Below, in pieces: positions 22,536-48,591 of a DNA stretch of 64,000 nt. Location of the stretch: NCBI RefSeq assembly GCF_009192745.1, contig NZ_VTFV01000002.1, positions 124,001-188,000 of the forward strand. Direction: 5' to 3'. The position numbers and the translations under genes were made by a program. The stretch comes from Arthrobacter citreus (lineage in GTDB: Bacteria; Actinomycetota; Actinomycetes; Actinomycetales; Micrococcaceae). Positions within the stretch are counted from its first letter, which is position 1. The number at the start of each line of letters is the position of its first letter. The notes beneath the pieces were generated by a model. That model was not told the origin of the DNA. It did no database searches and saw nothing but the letters and a program-made list of their open reading frames with translations.

Positions 22536-22740
22536 GTGGTCCTCTCTGGGCCTGCTGTGAATCCGGGCACGTCCCCGGCTCCCATTCGCTACGATTGGAA
22601 GAGAGGGTTTCCTTCACGAACACCCGCTCACCGCAGCTACCCGTCAGGATATAGCTGCAGGCCCGAGCGGGCGAACACCAGGAGCCCCAAAGACCATATC
22701 CGTGCCGGCATCGATTGAGCCGGTTCCGCTAGGAGGATCC

Positions 22741-22998
22741 GTGCCCGAGTCAAAGTCCCGCAAGAAGGCCACAGCCGCGCCAGCGGCCCCCACCACAAGG
22801 GGAAAGGCGGAACCCAAGCCGAACCCTGTCTGGTACAAACCCGTGATGTTTGGCTTGATGATTATTGGCCTGATCTGGATCATCGTGTTCTACATCTCCG
22901 AGGGTGTCTATCCCGTACCGGCGCTGGGTGCAGGCAATATCCTCGTCGGCTTCGGCGTCGCGATCGTGGGCTTCCTTATGACCACCCGCTGGCGGTAG
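22741..22998 (+). CDS. crgA: CrgA cell-division regulator
   Basis: An 85-residue protein with a basic N-terminal tail (PESKSRKKATAAPAAP) and two membrane helices at about 36-54 and 62-80 (PVMFGLMIIGLIWIIVFYI; AGNILVGFGVAIVGFLM). Length and topology match CrgA, which bridges FtsZ, FtsI and PbpA at the septum and was first described near the origin of Streptomyces. GTG 22741 follows AGGAGGATCC, an excellent ribosome-binding site. A terminator follows. Confidence 0.93.
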   Translation: MPESKSRKKATAAPAAPTTRGKAEPKPNPVWYKPVMFGLMIIGLIWIIVFYISEGVYPVPALGAGNILVGFGVAIVGFLMTTRWR

Positions 22999-23019: not shown

Positions 23020-23056
23020 AGAACTCCCTGGATCCCATCCGGGGAGTTCTTTTTTG
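23020..23056 (+). terminator. crgA terminator
   Basis: AGAACTCC and GGAGTTCT arms around a 14-nt interior, followed by a run of T residues (TTTTTTG), 20 nt after the crgA stop. Confidence 0.85.
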
Positions 23057-23097
23057 CCTCGTGACCACCTGTGGAGGACCCGGAGGTTTTAAACAGG

Positions 23098-23592
23098 GAT
23101 ACCCACAGGCACCCTGTTTCTCCACACATAGTTATCCACAGGCGTGGATAACTATGTGTGTGACTCTTCACCCACTTTCGTCTCACGAGTCACTCTCATG
23201 GCAGCGTTATCCACACGGCACGGTGGAAAAGCTGGGGACAACCCGGAAGCTGAAGATGCACACTTATACCCAGCTTGTGCAGATAGTTATCCACATCTGT
23301 GGGTATCTCTGTGGCTACGCAGCGGTAGTTCCTTGCAAACACAGGGATTGGAGTTATCCACAGCTGTGGAATTACATGTGTGTAACTAGAGATCCGCACT
23401 GGATAACTTTCCACAGAGGTTACCCACTGGCTGTGCATAACATTCAGTACACCCTGTGGATAAGTGCAGTGGGACTGGCCCCAGCCAACCTGATGCGCTG
23501 TGAAGGAGGATCCCAGTCCCTGAGTTACACAGCTGTAAGTTATTAACAATGTGGGTATCTCTGTGGATAAGGTGGCCGCAGCCTGTGGACAG
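23098..23592. repeat. Extra-origin DnaA-box cluster
   Basis: The 0.6-kb gene gap between crgA and the rhomboid gene holds six exact TTATCCACA boxes: plus strand 23132, 23207, 23287 and 23354; minus strand 23455-23463 and 23562-23570. One-mismatch boxes are at 23143-23151 (TTATCCACG) and 23432-23440 (TTATGCACA); weaker ATACCCACA or TGTGGGTAT copies are at 23098, 23298 and 23550. Exact plus-strand boxes all lie left of 23365 and exact minus-strand boxes right of 23450, so they face each other. The canonical dnaA-dnaN gap has only one exact copy. The likely role is DnaA titration or regulation of initiation (inference). Confidence 0.85.
23123..23160. repeat. Perfect 17-bp inverted repeat containing two DnaA boxes
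   Basis: CACACATAGTTATCCAC at 23123-23139 and its exact reverse complement at 23144-23160 are separated by AGGC. Each arm includes most of a DnaA box, giving two opposed boxes 2 nt apart. Confidence 0.9.
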
Positions 23593-23651: not shown

Positions 23652-23685
23652 AAAAAGGGCCCCGCAGCGTCTGCCGCGGGGCCCT
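23652..23685 (-). terminator. Terminator of the rhomboid gene
   Basis: AGGGCCCCGC pairs with GCGGGGCCCT; on the minus strand the stem is followed by TTTTTA. It lies 17 nt downstream of the rhomboid stop. Confidence 0.85.
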
Positions 23686-23701: not shown

Positions 23702-24544
23702 CTAGAAGCTCGGGGTCCAGAAAAAGCCCAGTGCCACCAGGACCAGTGCGATGGCGGCCAGTCCGCCGAATTGGACGAGGGACCGGCGGCGCCCCTTCGG
23801 GGCGTAGGCAAGCACGGCACCGCAGGCGGCGCCGGTCAGCAGGCCGCCCAGATGCGCCTGCCAGGAAATGCTCGGATAAAGGAAACCCAGCACGAGGTTG
23901 ATACCGATAAGGACCAGCAGGGCCTTGACGTCACCGCCGCGCTGCCTCTGGATGACAAAGAGGGCTCCGAACAGCCCGAAGATGGCCCCGGACGCGCCCA
24001 CGACTGCCTGGAAGGCGGGGGCGAGGATCAGCACACCGATAGACCCGCCAAGCGCGGAGACCAGGTAGAGCAGGATAAAACGCATCCTGCCCAGCAGCGG
24101 TTCCAGCGACCTGCCCAGCAGCCACAGTGCGTAAAGGTTAAAGGCGATGTGGAAAATGAAGCCGGGGGAGTGGAGGAACGCGGCAGTCAACATCCGCCAG
24201 GGTTCAATCTGGGCATACACCGGGGCGAACCACAGCAGTTCCGTGAACCCCGGGACCAGCCACTGGAGGGCATAGGCCGCGCCGCACAGCACCATAAGGG
24301 TAATGGTGACTACCGGCTTCCCGGTGCGAACGGCGCCGCCGTACTGTGTCCGGTAGGCAGGTGCCTGCCGCTGGTTCTCCCGGTAGCAGTCCACGCACTG
24401 AATCCCCACCGGAGCCGTGTGCTGGCACTCGGGGCAGGCAGCCCTGCCGCAACGCTGGCACCTGATGTAGCTGACCCGGTCAGGGTGCCGCGGGCAGACA
24501 GGCACTTCGTGTGCCGGGGTTCCGGCGGGTACTCCGTAGGACAT
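23702..24544 (-). CDS. Rhomboid family intramembrane serine protease with N-terminal zinc ribbon
   Basis: A 280-residue protein. Residues about 15-55 hold a cysteine-rich zinc-binding module (CPRHPDRVSYIRCQRC, then ACPEC and CVDC). Residues about 75-270 form the rhomboid core of six to seven helices: catalytic Ser in VGASGAIFGLFG, catalytic His in WQAHLGGLLTG, and HIAFNLYALWLLG for the oxyanion region. It cleaves membrane proteins within the bilayer; substrates are unknown. ATG 24544 is chosen because the longer frame has no ribosome-binding site and TGGAG lies about 10 nt upstream. Confidence 0.92.
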   Translation of the reverse strand: MSYGVPAGTPAHEVPVCPRHPDRVSYIRCQRCGRAACPECQHTAPVGIQCVDCYRENQRQAPAYRTQYGGAVRTGKPVVTITLMVLCGAAYALQWLVPGFTELLWFAPVYAQIEPWRMLTAAFLHSPGFIFHIAFNLYALWLLGRSLEPLLGRMRFILLYLVSALGGSIGVLILAPAFQAVVGASGAIFGLFGALFVIQRQRGGDVKALLVLIGINLVLGFLYPSISWQAHLGGLLTGAACGAVLAYAPKGRRRSLVQFGGLAAIALVLVALGFFWTPSF

Positions 24545-24578
24545 GGTGTTTTTGCTCCAGGAAGTTCTAGAGAGGTAT

Positions 24579-24605
24579 GCCCCGGCCGGCATGGCCGGCC
24601 GGGGC
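24579..24605. terminator. Hairpin downstream of the cyclophilin gene
   Basis: GCCCCGGCCGGC and its complement form a 12-bp GC stem with an ATG loop. No T-run follows on either strand, so it may be a weak or factor-dependent terminator. Confidence 0.55.
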
Positions 24606-24618
24606 ACCGGCGAAGCGG

Positions 24619-37403: not shown

Positions 37404-37965
37404 TGCAGGGTGCCGCCTTTCACAACGTACTTATCAGTACTACTGAATTTTCATGAACACGTGAGGGAGCAAATCGTGCGGCGCTGCCGCCCGGGCTGTC
37501 CGCCTGGGAATCACAACAATACTCTGTGCCAGCTTACCGCCAGCTTGGTTTTCCCTGCACGGAGTACGGGCAGGGAGGAGGCTTTGTGCGTTTGCCCAAC
37601 AGGACCGGACACCATCTTCCCTGACCTTGATGAGCCTGCTTGGGAAGATCGGATGTTTGGCCCGGAAGGTCAGATGTTATTTGGTGGAACCCAATTTCTT
37701 AAGATTCGTAGTGTTAATAACTCCTGTGGATACTGTGGACAACTCGCCTCACCGGCCCGGATCTGCGATTTAAGCCTGTTGATAACTTGTGGATGGCCAG
37801 CCTACGCGCTGAGGCCGGGTGTTGGGAACTTTTTTGTCGTTCCGCGTATCCACAGGGAAGTCCACGATGTTCTGGGTTGTCCACCGAGTTATCCACACCC
37901 TTGTCCACATCTGTTAATTTCGAGCCCCTTCGGGGCCCTTACATCCCTGTGCTGGCGCGGATTTT
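37404..37965. other. oriC: Replication origin oriC (dnaA-dnaN gap)
   Basis: A 562-nt gene-free gap. DnaA boxes: exact TTATCCACA at 37889-37897, TTGTCCACA at 37901-37909 and on the minus strand at 37734-37742, GTATCCACA at 37846-37854 and minus-strand 37725-37733, and weaker copies at 37788 and 37877. An AT-rich stretch at about 37692-37722 (TTTCTTAAGATTC, GTTAATAA) beside the first boxes is a candidate unwinding element. A small GCCCC-TTC-GGGGC hairpin at 37924-37936 lies just past the dnaA stop. The dnaN promoter must be in the left half. Confidence 0.88.
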
Positions 37966-39384: not shown

Positions 39385-39846
39385 AAAAACCTCTCGTGAC
39401 GCCCGCTGGGGGCGGTCTAAGAAACCGGGATCCAGGCCTGGATCCCGGAGGGCTCATCCACAGACTTATACACAGCAGTGGATAAACGCCCCGCGCCAAC
39501 TCTAGATCAAGTTTTCCCCAGCCGGTAGCTGGATTCCCGCGGTCCCCCGCGACTTGGGATGTCTCTCACAATGCCACGCCATGGCGCGATCTGGGGCACT
39601 TGTCCACAGGTGTTGATAGATCCAGCCCCACAGGCCGCGCACCGCCGGTTTGACTGGATTCGGGGTCTCACCTAACGTTGAGTAGTCCTTTGTGTCTGCT
39701 ATCTGCACTCATTCATGCCCATCAGGGTTCTGGGAATCAGGGTCCAGGTCCGGGTTGAGCGTAGTCAGTCACATGAAAACTTAGCGCCGCTTGTGCTTCC
39801 CCCTTGATGCAGCAGGCGCAGCGCATATTGTCTTGGAGTAACCACC
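39385..39846. promoter_or_regulatory. dnaA-rpmH divergent regulatory region
   Basis: A 462-nt gap holding the dnaA (minus) and rpmH (plus) promoters. DnaA-box-like sites: TTATACACA at 39466-39474, TTATCCACT (minus) at 39478-39486, and TTGTCCACA at 39600-39608. A GGATCCAGGCCTGGATCC palindrome lies at 39428-39445. Exact promoter hexamers could not be assigned. Confidence 0.65.
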
Positions 39847-43109: not shown

Positions 43110-44249
43110 GTGAGTGTGCGCGATTCTGCCGCAAAACGAATTCCCCCCTTTGCCGCGCTCGGCTCTGCCTTCTCATCGCCTTTCTCGAGGTCACAACCTC
43201 AAGAGGTTGAGGAGCCGTCCGCTCACTTGCCTGTTTCACGTGAAACAGGACATGCTGTTGCAACACAGTCTGCCGGCGCATCCGATGTGCCTGATTCCGA
43301 GACCAGCGAAGGTGGTGTAGCCGGCCAGGCGGTCCTCCCGTCCGAGTCGGTAGACGTTATGGATCTGATGGACGAAAGCACGCCCCTGGCCCGCGAGTTG
43401 GCCAGCGAGACCCGCCGCCGCGAAAAGTTGATGGGCCGCGTGCTGCCGCGTCCGGCTGAAACCCGGATCATGACTGTGAGCAACCAAAAGGGCGGGGTGG
43501 GCAAGACGACTACCACCGTCAATATTGCGGCCGCGCTGGCCACCGCAGGCCTGAACGTGATGGTCATCGACATTGACCCTCAGGGAAATGCCTCAACGGC
43601 CTTGGGAATCGATCACCGAGCCGACGTTGAGAGTATCTATGACGTCCTGATCGACGACCTGCCGCTGGCTAACGTTGTGGCCCAGTGCCCTGACATCAAG
43701 AACCTGATCTGTGCCCCTGCAACTATCCACCTCGCCGGTGCCGAGATTGAACTGGTGTCCCTGGTGGCGCGCGAGCAGCGCCTTCGCAGGGCAATCGATG
43801 TGTATGCCGCGGAGCGCAAGGCCGCGGGTGAGGAACGGCTGGACTACATCTTCATCGACTGCCCGCCAAGCCTTGGCCTGCTGACCGTGAACGCGTTCGT
43901 GGCAGCTAGGGAAGTCCTGATCCCCATTCAGTGTGAATACTATGCGCTGGAAGGCCTCAGCCAGCTGCTCAAGAACATCGAAATGATCCAGAAGCACCTG
44001 AATGCGGACCTCGTAGTTTCGACCATCCTGCTTACCATGTACGACGGCCGAACCAACCTGGCTGCCCAGGTTGCCGCCGAGGTTCGGGAGCACTTCCCGC
44101 AGCAGGTCCTTTCCGCCGTGGTGCCGCGTTCGGTGCGCATCTCCGAAGCACCGAGCTACCAGCAGACCGTCATGACGTACGACCCTTCGTCCACGGGCGC
44201 ACTGTCCTACCTGGAGGCCGCTGCTGAGATCGCTCAGCGCTCCGTCTAG
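43110..44249 (+). CDS. parA: Chromosome partitioning ATPase ParA
   Basis: A 379-residue protein. The ParA ATPase starts near residue 120: TVSNQKGGVGKTTTTVN is the deviant Walker A, with DIDPQGNASTALG and FIDCPPSLGLLTVNA following. The first 115 residues are low-complexity; within them the DNA contains a parS site translated as PVSRET. Start GTG 43110 is weakly supported and a downstream start is possible. It moves ParB-parS complexes after replication. It precedes parB in the same direction. Confidence 0.94.
   Translation: MSVRDSAAKRIPPFAALGSAFSSPFSRSQPQEVEEPSAHLPVSRETGHAVATQSAGASDVPDSETSEGGVAGQAVLPSESVDVMDLMDESTPLARELASETRRREKLMGRVLPRPAETRIMTVSNQKGGVGKTTTTVNIAAALATAGLNVMVIDIDPQGNASTALGIDHRADVESIYDVLIDDLPLANVVAQCPDIKNLICAPATIHLAGAEIELVSLVAREQRLRRAIDVYAAERKAAGEERLDYIFIDCPPSLGLLTVNAFVAAREVLIPIQCEYYALEGLSQLLKNIEMIQKHLNADLVVSTILLTMYDGRTNLAAQVAAEVREHFPQQVLSAVVPRSVRISEAPSYQQTVMTYDPSSTGALSYLEAAAEIAQRSV
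43233..43246. other. parS: parS site 1 (inside parA)
   Basis: Exact GTTTCACGTGAAAC, extended to the 16-bp TGTTTCACGTGAAACA. It encodes the VSRET stretch of the ParA N-terminal region. Confidence 0.93.
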
Positions 44250-44352
44250 ACACTCCCTCCTGGTTGCCGGGCACCGGCTGCCGCGAACCGTAGAATACAT
44301 TCACAATCAATCCATGCCGCTTGCTGTGTGTGCATAAGGGAAGGACTTACCC

Positions 44353-45705
44353 ATGACCGAAAAGCGTCGTGGTTTAGGCCGGGGTCTGGGTGCGTTGATC
44401 CCCAGTACCGCTGAGCCTGTCGAAGCAACTGAATCCGGCCAGCCTGCGCGTGCAGGCCGGCCGGTTGACCTGTTCTTTACTTCCGTGAGTGAGGAGACAG
44501 GCCCCGGACGCAGCAGCGGACCCCGCCGTGGAGCGGGAATCAACAAAGAAGCGTTGCGAGCCCCGGCTAAGAAGAAACCTGCAACGCGTTCGACGTCGAC
44601 CCGCGCGGCCAAGGGAAGCGACAAGCCCGTACCCTCCGCAGGGGAAGCTGCATCGGCCGAGAAAACAGGGCGTACAGCCCCTGTAACGGCTGGCAAGGCA
44701 GTAACCGGTGCCGGCACGCGCAAGGGCGTCTCGAAGCCCGCAGAGAAGCACGCCAGGCCGGCAGGAGGCGATCCCGCGCGGACTGACACGCGGGTAGCTG
44801 CGGCCACCAAGGATGGGGGTGTGGTCCCGACCGCCGCGGCCGAACCTGATGACGTTTCACGTGAAACCCTGATGGAAGTCCCCGGCGCCCGCTTTGCTGA
44901 GCTGCCTATTGATTCCATCCACCCCAACCGCAAGCAGCCACGCAGTGTCTTCGATGAAGAGGACATGTCGGAACTGGTGCATTCCATTCGCGAAATCGGC
45001 GTCCTGCAGCCGATTGTGGTCCGTCCCTCTGCAGAGGGCGACGCAGAGCACCCTTATGAACTGGTTATGGGTGAAAGGCGGTGGCGGGCGAGCCGGGAAG
45101 CTGGCCTGTCTGCAGTCCCGGCAATCATCCGGTCGACCCAGGATGTTGACCTTCTTCGCGACGCGCTGCTGGAGAACCTGCATCGCAGCCAGCTGAACCC
45201 GCTGGAGGAAGCCGCCGCTTACCAGCAGCTGCTCGATGATTTTGAGTGCTCCCATGAAGAGCTCGCGGAACGAATCGGCCGGTCCCGCCCTCAGATCTCC
45301 AACACGCTTCGGTTGATGAAGCTCCCTCCGCTGGTGCAGCGGCGCCTTGCTGCCGGCGTACTTTCGGCGGGTCACGCCCGCGCGCTCCTAGGCCTCAATG
45401 TGCCGGCCGAGATGGAGAAACTTGCGCAGAAGATCGTGGCTGAAGGCATGTCTGTCCGCGCCACGGAAGAAGTCGTATCGCTGTCGGACGGTATTCGACG
45501 GCCAGCTAAGGAAGCAAAACCCAAGGTTGGAGCCAGGCACGAGCGACTCGACTACCTGGCAAATTCGCTGTCCGATCGGCTGGATACAAACGTCAAGATC
45601 ACCCTTGGGGCGCGAAAGGGAAAAGTTAGTATCGAATTCGCCAGCGTCGATGACCTGAATCGCATCATGGCAGTGCTGAACCCCGTTGAAGGGCCGGCGT
45701 CCTAG
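44353..45705 (+). CDS. parB: Chromosome partitioning protein ParB
   Basis: A 450-residue protein. The first 170 residues are a Lys/Ala/Pro-rich linker ([16 protein letters not shown] at the start is the ParA-stimulating peptide). The ParB/Srx CTPase domain begins at [15 protein letters not shown] and includes [13 protein letters not shown]; the helix-turn-helix is in [19 protein letters not shown]. The C-terminal dimerisation domain ends in [10 protein letters not shown]. It spreads as a CTP clamp from parS. The terminator contains parS site 3. Confidence 0.96.
44854..44867. other. parS: parS site 2 (inside parB)
   Basis: Exact GTTTCACGTGAAAC, translated as VSRET in the ParB linker just before the CTPase domain. 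Confidence 0.93.
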
Positions 45706-45714
45706 AGCGTAGTT

Positions 45715-45756
45715 AAAAAGTGTCCCCTGTTTCACGTGAAACAGGGGACACTTTTT
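45715..45756 (+). terminator. parB terminator built around parS site 3
   Basis: A 42-bp perfect palindrome centred on CACGTG. The outer AAAAAGTGTCCCC and GGGGACACTTTTT arms make an intrinsic terminator with a T-run, and the inner 16 bp are parS. It lies 9 nt after the parB stop. Confidence 0.9.
45729..45742. other. parS: parS site 3 (in parB terminator)
   Basis: Exact GTTTCACGTGAAAC with flanking T and A giving the 16-bp consensus. Confidence 0.95.
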
Positions 45757-45886
45757 TGCACTTAGTATGGGGGCCGGGACCGGAGCCCCGCGTTACGAAG
45801 CCGGGAGCTGCTGGACACATATATATCGACGCACTCAGAAGCGCACCAGTCGCACGTCACCAGCACGGGCTTTTGCGGACAAGGGC

Positions 45887-45900
45887 GTTTCACGTGAAAC
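45887..45900. other. parS: parS site 4
   Basis: Exact GTTTCACGTGAAAC, 145 nt beyond site 3. Confidence 0.95.
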
Positions 45901-46118
45901 AGTTCGTTTAGTTGCCACCCGTGAGTGCTCTGTCGCTGTAGCTGGTTGACCGTAGCGATATTGCACTACGCCCTAGCAGCCTTAGTGGTAGAACCAGCAG
46001 ACGCCTGGCGCGTTCCGATGTCCCGAATGCACCTCTAGGGCTTGGTATTCTCTGCGTCGGCGGTCAGCTCGTCTCTTCGACCGATCCAGAATGAAAGCGG
46101 CTGTCCGGTGATAGTGCT

Positions 46119-46132
46119 GTTTCACGTGAAAC
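46119..46132. other. parS: parS site 5
   Basis: Exact GTTTCACGTGAAAC, flanked by T on the left and C on the right. Confidence 0.95.
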
Positions 46133-46484
46133 CAGTGCCGCGCTTTGTGAGCGAAAGTAGAGGTGGCCTGACTTTGATGAGACTTTATCCTGCGCCCTGG
46201 AGCTCCCCAATGGATCCTCTTCGACGATCACCGCTTAGCTCTGGCCTCGCTGCAGGGGAAAGTTGGTCTGCTCAGTTGTTTCCCGTGGACTTTGTTGTGG
46301 TCCAGTGGGTACTCATCGCCTTTGTAGCTGCGGCTATTTAGTCGTGTTTTGTTTGGTCATAGGCAGGAACGTCTACTTGTTCTTTGAGGAGGGTTCTGTA
46401 CGACTCCGGGAACGTGAGACTGGCGCACCCGAGGATGCGTGCAGCCGCGCTGTACCGCGAGAGTGCCGCGGTAACTGACTCAGA

Positions 46485-46498
46485 GTTTCACGTGAAAC
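46485..46498. other. parS: parS site 6
   Basis: Exact GTTTCACGTGAAAC. Confidence 0.95.
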
Positions 46499-46762
46499 GT
46501 CGGCCGTTCCTGCACTGCCATGGCCGGGGCCTCTCGAGCAGCGATGGGTCCCATTGCCAGGTGCGCGAAATATGACCATGGATGTGCAGGTGTTCATCTC
46601 CAGGCGCCCCGCGCGATCGGACGGAGAGAACCATGCTCATACGTGAAAGGTTGTGAAACGCCACCACGTACTCAGAGCCGCGCAGAACTGAGCGTCCGCT
46701 ACCGACCGATTAGTCCGCGAGGCACGGTCTCTGTAGGAGGGTGGCGGAGGCACCATCCGCTT

Positions 46763-46776
46763 GTTTCACGTGAAAC
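46763..46776. other. parS: parS site 7
   Basis: Exact core within the full 16-bp TGTTTCACGTGAAACA. Confidence 0.95.
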
Positions 46777-47250
46777 AAAGCTCGGACCGCCGGGAGGCCG
46801 CAATCCCTGCAGTCGACGGCGAGGACCAGCCTGGTCGCTGCGGGAGTGTGCGGGGTCCGCCCCGGCGAGTCTGACACAGAGGGACCTGGTTGCTGAAGTT
46901 TGCTAGCTCGCTATGGGGCTTTGGATGGCCCCAAGATGTGGCGGGCTAGTCTCGTCACCAGTCACCCCACGAGCAGGTGGAGGTGCGGTCGGTAAGCCGG
47001 AAGAGCCGCGTGGCTGTGCCAGCTGATCCCACCGCTTGTAATGACTGGAGCATCTCTTCGGGCGATGCGGGTTGGTCTCTGCAGTTTCCGTGTCGCGATA
47101 CTGGTGCGCATTCTCGTGCATTGCCAGCATTGGTTTGTATATGGCAAGGATGCCAACGTCAGGGGACGTCCCTATGAGACGGCATGAGGTTTGCCCAGAT
47201 TCCCATCAGTAGGGGGGGTGGCACACCTATTGCGTACTAGAAGGAAGTCC

Positions 47251-47264
47251 GTTCCACGTGAAAC
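47251..47264. other. parS: parS site 8 (one mismatch)
   Basis: GTTCCACGTGAAAC differs from the consensus at position 4 only. Binding may be reduced. Confidence 0.75.
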
Positions 47265-47974
47265 AGACGCACTTCGGAGGACCAGCTTTAGGATCTGCCA
47301 CGTACAGAAAGGACAGGCCTTGGCCCTGTACTGCAAGCCCGTAATGGGAGGGAGCAGCGGCGCTTACGTCGGTGGCGCCGGCATTTGAGATCTCATCCTC
47401 GGAGTAGCTAGGCGCGGATAGCCACAGGATGTGCCATAGGGTAAACAGCGGCCGCCCACGGGTGGATATGTTTCTAGAATCGGAGAATCATACAGGGGAA
47501 GAGTTCTGAGCTCATGGCGGATGCCTCTGTGCTGGCGCTCAGCGGCCCCAAACTCTCTCTTTCTGCCACTCTGTCGAACTGCCCTCGGAGCCTCAATCTG
47601 GCCTGGTGAGTTAGCGCTCTCAGGCTCAGCGACATTCTGGGTTGGGGCCTATTCCCTGACGATGTAACGGAGGTAGCTGGCCGGGTAGAGCACGCTGGAG
47701 CGCGCCAGCCAGCTGGTCAAGAAGCACTGCGGCGGCCTCGGGGCGGTCGGCGTCCAATCCAGATGTGCGGCAGACGCGCGAGAGTGCCGCCATTGTTCTC
47801 TTGGGTCCTGCACAAGAAAGCCGAAACTCATTTTCCATGCCTCAGCAGGGATGGGGTATCGCCGAGCAACAATGCTTGGCCTCCTCGGTCAGGGCACTTC
47901 AGGCAGCAGCCCTACCCCGCTGTCTGCCAGCAGGCCCGCGCACGACTCCTTGACCACTCGTAAGCCGGTGCTCG

Positions 47975-47988
47975 GTTTCACGTGAAAC
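47975..47988. other. parS: parS site 9
   Basis: Exact GTTTCACGTGAAAC. Confidence 0.95.
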
Positions 47989-48577
47989 GCCGGGAGCAAT
48001 GGCTCTTCTTGCCGCAAACGTCCGGTATCCGGTGTCCCTCCAGCGGCGTTGGCGGGTTGGTGCCACCGACTTTGGATAGTCCCTTCGAGGACTCCTTTGG
48101 AAGCGGTGTTTAGCCCACAAACCGAACGGGACGAACGAAATCGGCTCAACAGAGTAACGGAAGAACCAAAAGGTCCAGCACCAGCAGACCTGTGTGCCAG
48201 TTGGAGGTGTTCACCCTCGGCTAGCCCCTGCCCTGTTGTCGACTTCACGCTGGCATCATGTATTGGGCAAGACTGACTCCCAGTCCCACGGTGCGGACTT
48301 CCGACAAGGACCACAGGACAGGTGCCGGCAGAACTCACGGGTCCGGTTCCGTCGGCGGCCCGCAGGTTCGACCTAGAGACTCCATTGCATCGGGACAGGT
48401 CATGCACGCCTGGCCACCCCGGCCGGCTGGGCTGGTGTGAAACCAGCGGATGACTTGGGAACTGCAACAGTATGTGGGTGCGGTCTGAGTGGATCCTGCA
48501 GGTGTAAATGGCAGGCCAGACATGAAGCCAGCTAAATAAGACTGGACCCGCACCGATGCGGGTAGTCTCGACGAGCT

Positions 48578-48591
48578 GTTTCACGTGAAAC
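48578..48591. other. parS: parS site 10
   Basis: Exact core within the full 16-bp TGTTTCACGTGAAACA; the outermost site, 10.6 kb from oriC. Confidence 0.95.

Follow-up and report, generated by a model that had tools for sequence, protein, structure and literature searches.

The window (the whole 64-kb stretch of Arthrobacter citreus DNA that was analysed) carries crgA and a rhomboid protease gene whose 3' ends converge on a region dense in DnaA boxes. This region is 14 kb from oriC, the gap between dnaA and dnaN at 37404-37965 (DnaA and DnaN identified by Pfam). The original prediction had placed a dense cluster of exact boxes here, and Pfam agrees with the two flanking genes. Seven exact TTATCCACA boxes are present in the whole window against 0.16 expected, and none of 100 shuffles gave seven. 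Six of them fall within 439 bp (23132-23570), and the seventh, at 37889, is the single exact box that had been claimed for the dnaA-dnaN gap. The orientation is also as claimed, with four plus-strand copies on the left (23132, 23207, 23287 and 23354) and two minus-strand copies on the right (23455 and 23562). One-mismatch boxes number three (23118+, 23143- and 23432-), not two. The cluster was said to be richer than oriC, which holds for exact boxes (six against one) but not when up to one mismatch is allowed, where oriC is the denser (6 boxes in 185 bp vs 9 boxes in 453 bp).

The features of the locus are given below. We call a triad one box head-to-head with a tandem pair (12-13 bp); in the counts, each box had to score at least 7 of 9 and the three scores had to sum to at least 23.

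22702-22998, plus strand: crgA (Pfam CrgA), conserved neighbour outside the element
23020-23056, plus strand: probable intrinsic terminator of crgA, a stem at 23020-23050 and then a T run (read from an inverted repeat and the sequence; missed by the terminator scan)
23070-23592, no strand: the whole putative regulatory element with its DnaA boxes; G+C is mostly 45-55%, against 64% in the window
23123-23160, no strand: perfect inverted repeat whose 17-bp arms are 4 bp apart, with two opposed boxes inside (23132+ and 23143-)
23132-23140, plus strand: exact DnaA box
23207-23215, plus strand: exact DnaA box, also a member of a looser triad 23207+/23222-/23233- (scores 9, 7 and 7; offsets 15 and 11)
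23287-23318, plus strand: triad A, exact box 23287+ with weak boxes 23298- and 23310- (9, 7 and 7 of 9; offsets 11 and 12)
23354-23362, plus strand: exact DnaA box
23407-23440, minus strand: triad C, in the opposite orientation, 23432-, 23420+ and 23407+ (8, 7 and 7; offsets 12 and 13); its sum of 22 is under the cut of 23 used in the counts
23455-23463, minus strand: exact DnaA box
23540-23570, plus strand: triad B, weak boxes 23540+ and 23550- with exact box 23562- (7, 7 and 9; offsets 10 and 12)
23656-23685, minus strand: hairpin after the rhomboid gene, terminator-like, with 13 pairs and a T tail (terminator scan)
23702-24607, minus strand: rhomboid protease gene (Pfam rhomboid), conserved neighbour convergent with crgA

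With six exact boxes in 439 bp, the region is an extra-oriC DnaA-box cluster in the sense of consensus boxes beyond chance outside oriC. Among the 26 exact boxes listed for the whole genome (3.55 Mb in 13 contigs), six are in this cluster, and the only other group of at least three exact boxes within 500 bp is upstream of dnaB (C3:206849-207071). Pfam-recognisable coding capacity and an RNA of a known Rfam family were considered and excluded, as the two longest frames mostly inside the region matched no Pfam family and the region matched no Rfam family.

Conservation beside crgA and the rhomboid gene

Of 149 genomes of the family Micrococcaceae, 148 have CrgA and all have a rhomboid match (E 1e-25 or better; taken as the ortholog). 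We read the downstream side of crgA at 110 loci and the rhomboid 3' flank in 92 genomes from 31 genera. Of these 92 genomes, 91 have TTRTCCACA no more than 800 bp from the rhomboid 3' end, and 73 have two or more copies there. The boxes are not missing in close relatives, the outcome that the original prediction had named as fatal to it: each of the eight genomes sampled from the window's genus has three or more at the site.

Anchoring on crgA alone left many of the 110 loci without boxes downstream, and anchoring on the rhomboid gene accounted for most of these. Where crgA and the rhomboid gene are parted by a few kb of other genes, the boxes remain at the rhomboid gene (for example in genera g10, g18, g21, g23 and g24). 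Boxes are fewer where the two genes are tens of kb or more apart (two or three in g16, one or two in g3, one in g27). Genus g7 has at most one box in the 800 bp next to the rhomboid gene and two or three about 1.3-1.4 kb off, and in g25 and some g29 genomes the box group is 0.65-1.1 kb away. One genome (G053, loci L026 and L173) has two box groups, at the rhomboid 3' end and about 2.6 kb towards crgA, a possible duplication.

Beyond Micrococcaceae, we read the 3' side of crgA in 133 distinct genomes from 33 other families. Of the 133 genomes, 94 have a box in the 500 bp 3' of crgA, and 16 of the 33 families have at least one such genome. Box density is 177 times that just upstream of the gene (180 in 66.3 kb against 4 in 260.9 kb). 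Such boxes are present in family f25 (32 of 34 genomes) and family f10 (35 of 39), which we take to be Mycobacteriaceae in the GTDB sense. No box was found within 500 bp 3' of crgA in f20 (0 of 5), f35 (0 of 3), f53 (0 of 3), f49 (0 of 2) or f52 (0 of 2). A CrgA query from f25 retrieved 80 named loci, two of them from one strain; 79 are labelled Streptomyces and one Actinobacteria bacterium OK074, and on this basis we take f25 to be Streptomyces. All 80 named loci have two or more boxes, with 261 in 40.0 kb against none in 234 kb upstream. Boxes at the same locus in Streptomyces and other families point to an actinomycete-wide element that is absent or unrecognised in some families. The original prediction of a DnaA-control site outside oriC thus stands as the best reading, but the site is more than a Micrococcaceae counterpart of something elsewhere.

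A role in chromosome organisation or segregation near the origin would fit a conserved, origin-proximal site. We consider it very unlikely, as the ten parS-like sites of the window are all at 43233-48591 and the cluster has none.

Spacing of the boxes and the triad

In Micrococcaceae, strong boxes at the site have weaker partners (scores of at least 7 of 9) that recur on the same strand at +12/+13 and on the opposite strand at +10/+11/+23; their frequencies are 11-35%, and the background is below 1%. The presumed Mycobacteriaceae show the same-strand +13 peak (47%), opposite +23 (47%) and opposite +10 (22%); further peaks at large offsets of 137-187 are unexplained. The leading spacings in Streptomyces (f25) are opposite 43 and 192 and same-strand 149, and +12/+13 occurs at 10-14%. 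Eight oriC regions of the family lead with same-strand 9, 12 and 22; opposite-strand offsets there stay at 5% or below.

These spacings bear on an accessory or relic replication origin, which would account for the many boxes and lowered G+C (the lowest 50-bp stretch has 18 G+C, against 16 in oriC). The same-strand +9 and +22 that lead at the family oriC are, however, not among the leading spacings at the crgA-rhomboid site. The closest neighbours of the cluster are crgA, a sortase-like gene, the rhomboid gene and a cyclophilin gene, so the earlier statement that no replication gene adjoins the cluster was right. We regard an origin here as highly improbable.

The commonest triads in Micrococcaceae and f10 have a head-to-head offset of 10-11 bp and a tandem offset of 12-13 bp. 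Triads were counted in 80 of 92 Micrococcaceae genomes (30 of 31 genera), 30 of 39 f10, 20 of 34 f25, 57 of 80 named loci and 19 of 61 from other families, and in two of the eight family oriC regions. Ten shuffles of each set gave none. The definition was derived from Micrococcaceae and f10 before counting there, and the other families are the clean independent check. As a second control, the 12-13 bp tandem spacing was replaced by eight others. The maximum was then 16 of 92 in Micrococcaceae (24-25 bp), 1 of 39 in f10 and 2 of 61 in other families. The named loci gave 49 of 80 (19-20 bp) and 28 of 80 (21-22 bp), and f25 gave 12 of 34 and 13 of 34 at these two spacings. The triad spacing is therefore specific in Micrococcaceae, f10 and other families and not specific in Streptomyces. 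Before the triad we had tried a 13-bp box pair (36 matches in 31 of 149 family genomes, with 27 of these matches no more than 1.2 kb from the rhomboid 3' end), which the triad superseded.

The cluster in the window has two triads of sum 23, and six of the eight sampled genomes of its genus have a triad by this definition, which is looser than the 32-bp pattern described next; the triads of the genus are weaker and miss that pattern. At a sum of at least 22 (offsets 9-16 and 11-13), the window has four triads in the crgA-rhomboid cluster, one upstream of dnaA and none elsewhere.

We then took the commonest triad as a 32-bp pattern, allowing up to three mismatches, with the reversed pattern as control. 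In the family it has 106 matches, spread over 79 of 149 genomes, and 83 of the 106 are no more than 2 kb from the 3' end of crgA or the rhomboid gene. Across the class there are 42 matches in 42 of 256 genomes. All 29 with a listed crgA position are 18-124 bp 3' of crgA, and six more are about 70-100 bp beyond it (tblastn on the loci), so that all 35 placed matches adjoin the crgA 3' end and seven are unplaced. The reversed pattern had no match in either search. The pattern is missing from 70 of 149 family and 214 of 256 class genomes, and at up to three mismatches from all eight sampled genomes of the window's genus, its own genome included. Thirteen of the 23 remaining family matches are in genus g3 (G002, G059, G101, G147 and others), at least 17 kb from crgA or the rhomboid gene or on other contigs; the element may have multiplied or moved there.

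Plain titration, in which boxes merely soak up free DnaA and their number is decisive, would suit the many boxes near oriC in Micrococcaceae. It also has a precedent in Bacillus subtilis, where deletion of six clusters outside oriC is reported to cause early initiation (PMC13220808). Yet among the 39 f10 loci, 26 have a single TTRTCCACA box and 4 have none, 30 in all, and 30 of 39 have a triad. Little DnaA would be held at so few boxes, which argues against plain titration, and we consider it unlikely. That many genomes have few boxes at the site argues that selection keeps the geometry and not box number alone, and the arrangement in triads speaks for a complex that depends on geometry more than for plain titration.

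The geometry is not unique to the crgA-rhomboid site, since dnaA and dnaB also have upstream triads of this topology. It shows up at other likely DnaA-regulated places and, unlike those, the crgA-rhomboid site has no adjoining gene start. A transcriptional role, in which DnaA would be a roadblock terminator or would regulate crgA, the rhomboid gene or an unseen transcript, would draw on those upstream triads and on the tight linkage of the boxes to the two 3' ends. We consider such a role improbable. The region is not a DnaA-regulated promoter in the sense of boxes upstream of a gene start, as it is between two convergent 3' ends and has no sigma-70-type promoter match or Rfam match. Both genes aim into it and are followed by a terminator-like hairpin (after crgA, by our reading), and the boxes stay with the rhomboid gene where other genes take the place of crgA.

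Comparison with known sites and a proposed role

We read the DARS cores of Escherichia coli MG1655 for comparison (DARS1, 813107+/813121-/813133-; DARS2, 2969135+/2969149-/2969161-; both with offsets 14 and 12), and the spacing is described as identical at both sites (PMC5742627). The crgA-site triads resemble these cores in having box I opposed to the tandem boxes II and III, in a tandem distance of 12 bp and in being intergenic; this three-box arrangement is present in the two window triads of sum 23 and in 80 of 92 family genomes. The spacing itself differs. The E. coli boxes are at 0, 14 and 26 and the commonest crgA-site triads at 0, 10-11 and 23, so that the head-to-head distance is 3-4 bp shorter at the crgA site; the window has 10-11 and 12, and Micrococcaceae and f10 mostly 10-11 and 12-13. 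The DARS sites are mid-arm, whereas the putative control site between crgA and the rhomboid gene is near oriC. Our triad scan scored DARS1 but not DARS2, whose weaker boxes are below the cut, nor datA. Like our region, datA is an extra-oriC box cluster; it acts on DnaA through IHF-dependent hydrolysis of DnaA-ATP, and its deletion gives extra initiation, whereas deletion of DARS delays initiation. It is datA that is described as about 460 kb from oriC and has no triad in a scan that also missed the DARS2 stretch. E. coli DnaA is reported to prefer tandem pairs 2-3 bp apart, and widening a tandem gap from 3 to 4 bp strongly reduces its association (PMC11317965). The tandem gaps at crgA-site triads are 3-4 bp, and 4 bp in the (10,13) triads.

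One Streptomyces coelicolor cluster, H69, called after its cosmid, may be the crgA-rhomboid locus itself. The S. coelicolor clusters (Smulczyk-Krawczyszyn 2006) are alike in being close to oriC, and passages on them and on those of B. subtilis describe repression of untimely initiation (PMC4585315, PMC5742627). The S. coelicolor passages available to us make no mention of cross-family conservation or of a triad. The B. subtilis clusters (Okumura 2012) are also origin-proximal but belong to another phylum. None of the titles and abstract openings that we searched reports a DnaA-box site at crgA, though such a report may be in print.

A box cluster that accompanies the same genes in a large part of the Actinomycetes, often in a fixed three-site geometry, is probably an initiation control site. 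We interpret the crgA-rhomboid region as a probable cis-acting, non-transcriptional DnaA-control element, taking initiator control in any form. The forms considered are geometry-dependent restraint, DARS-like reactivation and plain titration, and the first is our tentative choice. DnaA would bind the strong boxes and recruit more DnaA to the weak boxes that partner them in each triad, and the resulting multimer would have head-to-head plus tandem contacts, unlike the head-to-tail filament at oriC. This multimer would most likely alter DnaA availability or nucleotide state. Because it is 14 kb from oriC, the site would be copied just after initiation, and the complex would then most likely withhold or inactivate DnaA and so damp re-initiation. 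The same proximity, with the published effects of the S. coelicolor and B. subtilis clusters, makes restraint more likely than reactivation, and the element probably restrains initiation.

In DARS-like reactivation, ADP-DnaA would sit head-to-head on the triad and release ADP, and the regenerated DnaA-ATP would promote initiation. The triad has the topology of the DARS1 and DARS2 cores and occurs in only two of eight family oriC regions. The head-to-head pair is described as characteristic of and essential for DARS, unlike oriC (PMC10380432, PMC5742627). However, the head-to-head offset is mostly 10-11 rather than the 14 of both E. coli sites, the weak DARS2 core is itself under our score cut, and triads are also upstream of dnaA and dnaB, with offsets of 14 and 11 or 12 and 12 at dnaB. 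Moreover, DARS2 relocated near oriC is reported to inhibit E. coli initiation moderately (PMC5742627). We hold this bolder rival to be unlikely, if only slightly less likely than geometry-dependent restraint. An ancient, gene-linked DARS-type three-box site 3' of crgA in Actinomycetes, switching the nucleotide state of DnaA and so controlling initiation, is a speculative reading of the same sequences. If it were true, the site would be older than the divergence of Micrococcaceae, Streptomyces and the presumed Mycobacteriaceae, with the tight triad retained in some lines and changed in Streptomyces. It would then be the first known nucleotide-state control locus outside Proteobacteria; no Hda, SeqA, DARS or datA is known to be described in actinomycetes. 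B. subtilis is likewise described as having none of the four (PMC13220808). The putative element has a fixed chromosomal place and is recognisable by sequence in many families.

Other DnaA-box groups and parS-like sites

Upstream of dnaA, the window also has a triad (39454-39485) whose three boxes each score 8 of 9 and which could serve dnaA autoregulation. Near the origin region, loci L247, L250, L251 and L253 have a 12,12 triad with these box scores. On the other side of oriC are the ten parS-like sites (43233-48591), nine exact and one with one mismatch; the rest of the window has none at up to two mismatches.

Outside the window, about 45 kb from oriC on its other side, a box group is directly upstream of the replicative helicase gene dnaB (L241 7850-8072, G000:C3:206849-207071). 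Boxes upstream of dnaB were also seen at L242, L243, L244, L245, L246 and L255. Triads of geometries (14,11) and (12,12) are upstream of dnaB at L241, L242, L243 and L246 and at neither L244 nor L245. In the G053 genome, dnaB is in two tblastn pieces about 1.2 kb apart (L244 4829-7447), which looks like an intein.
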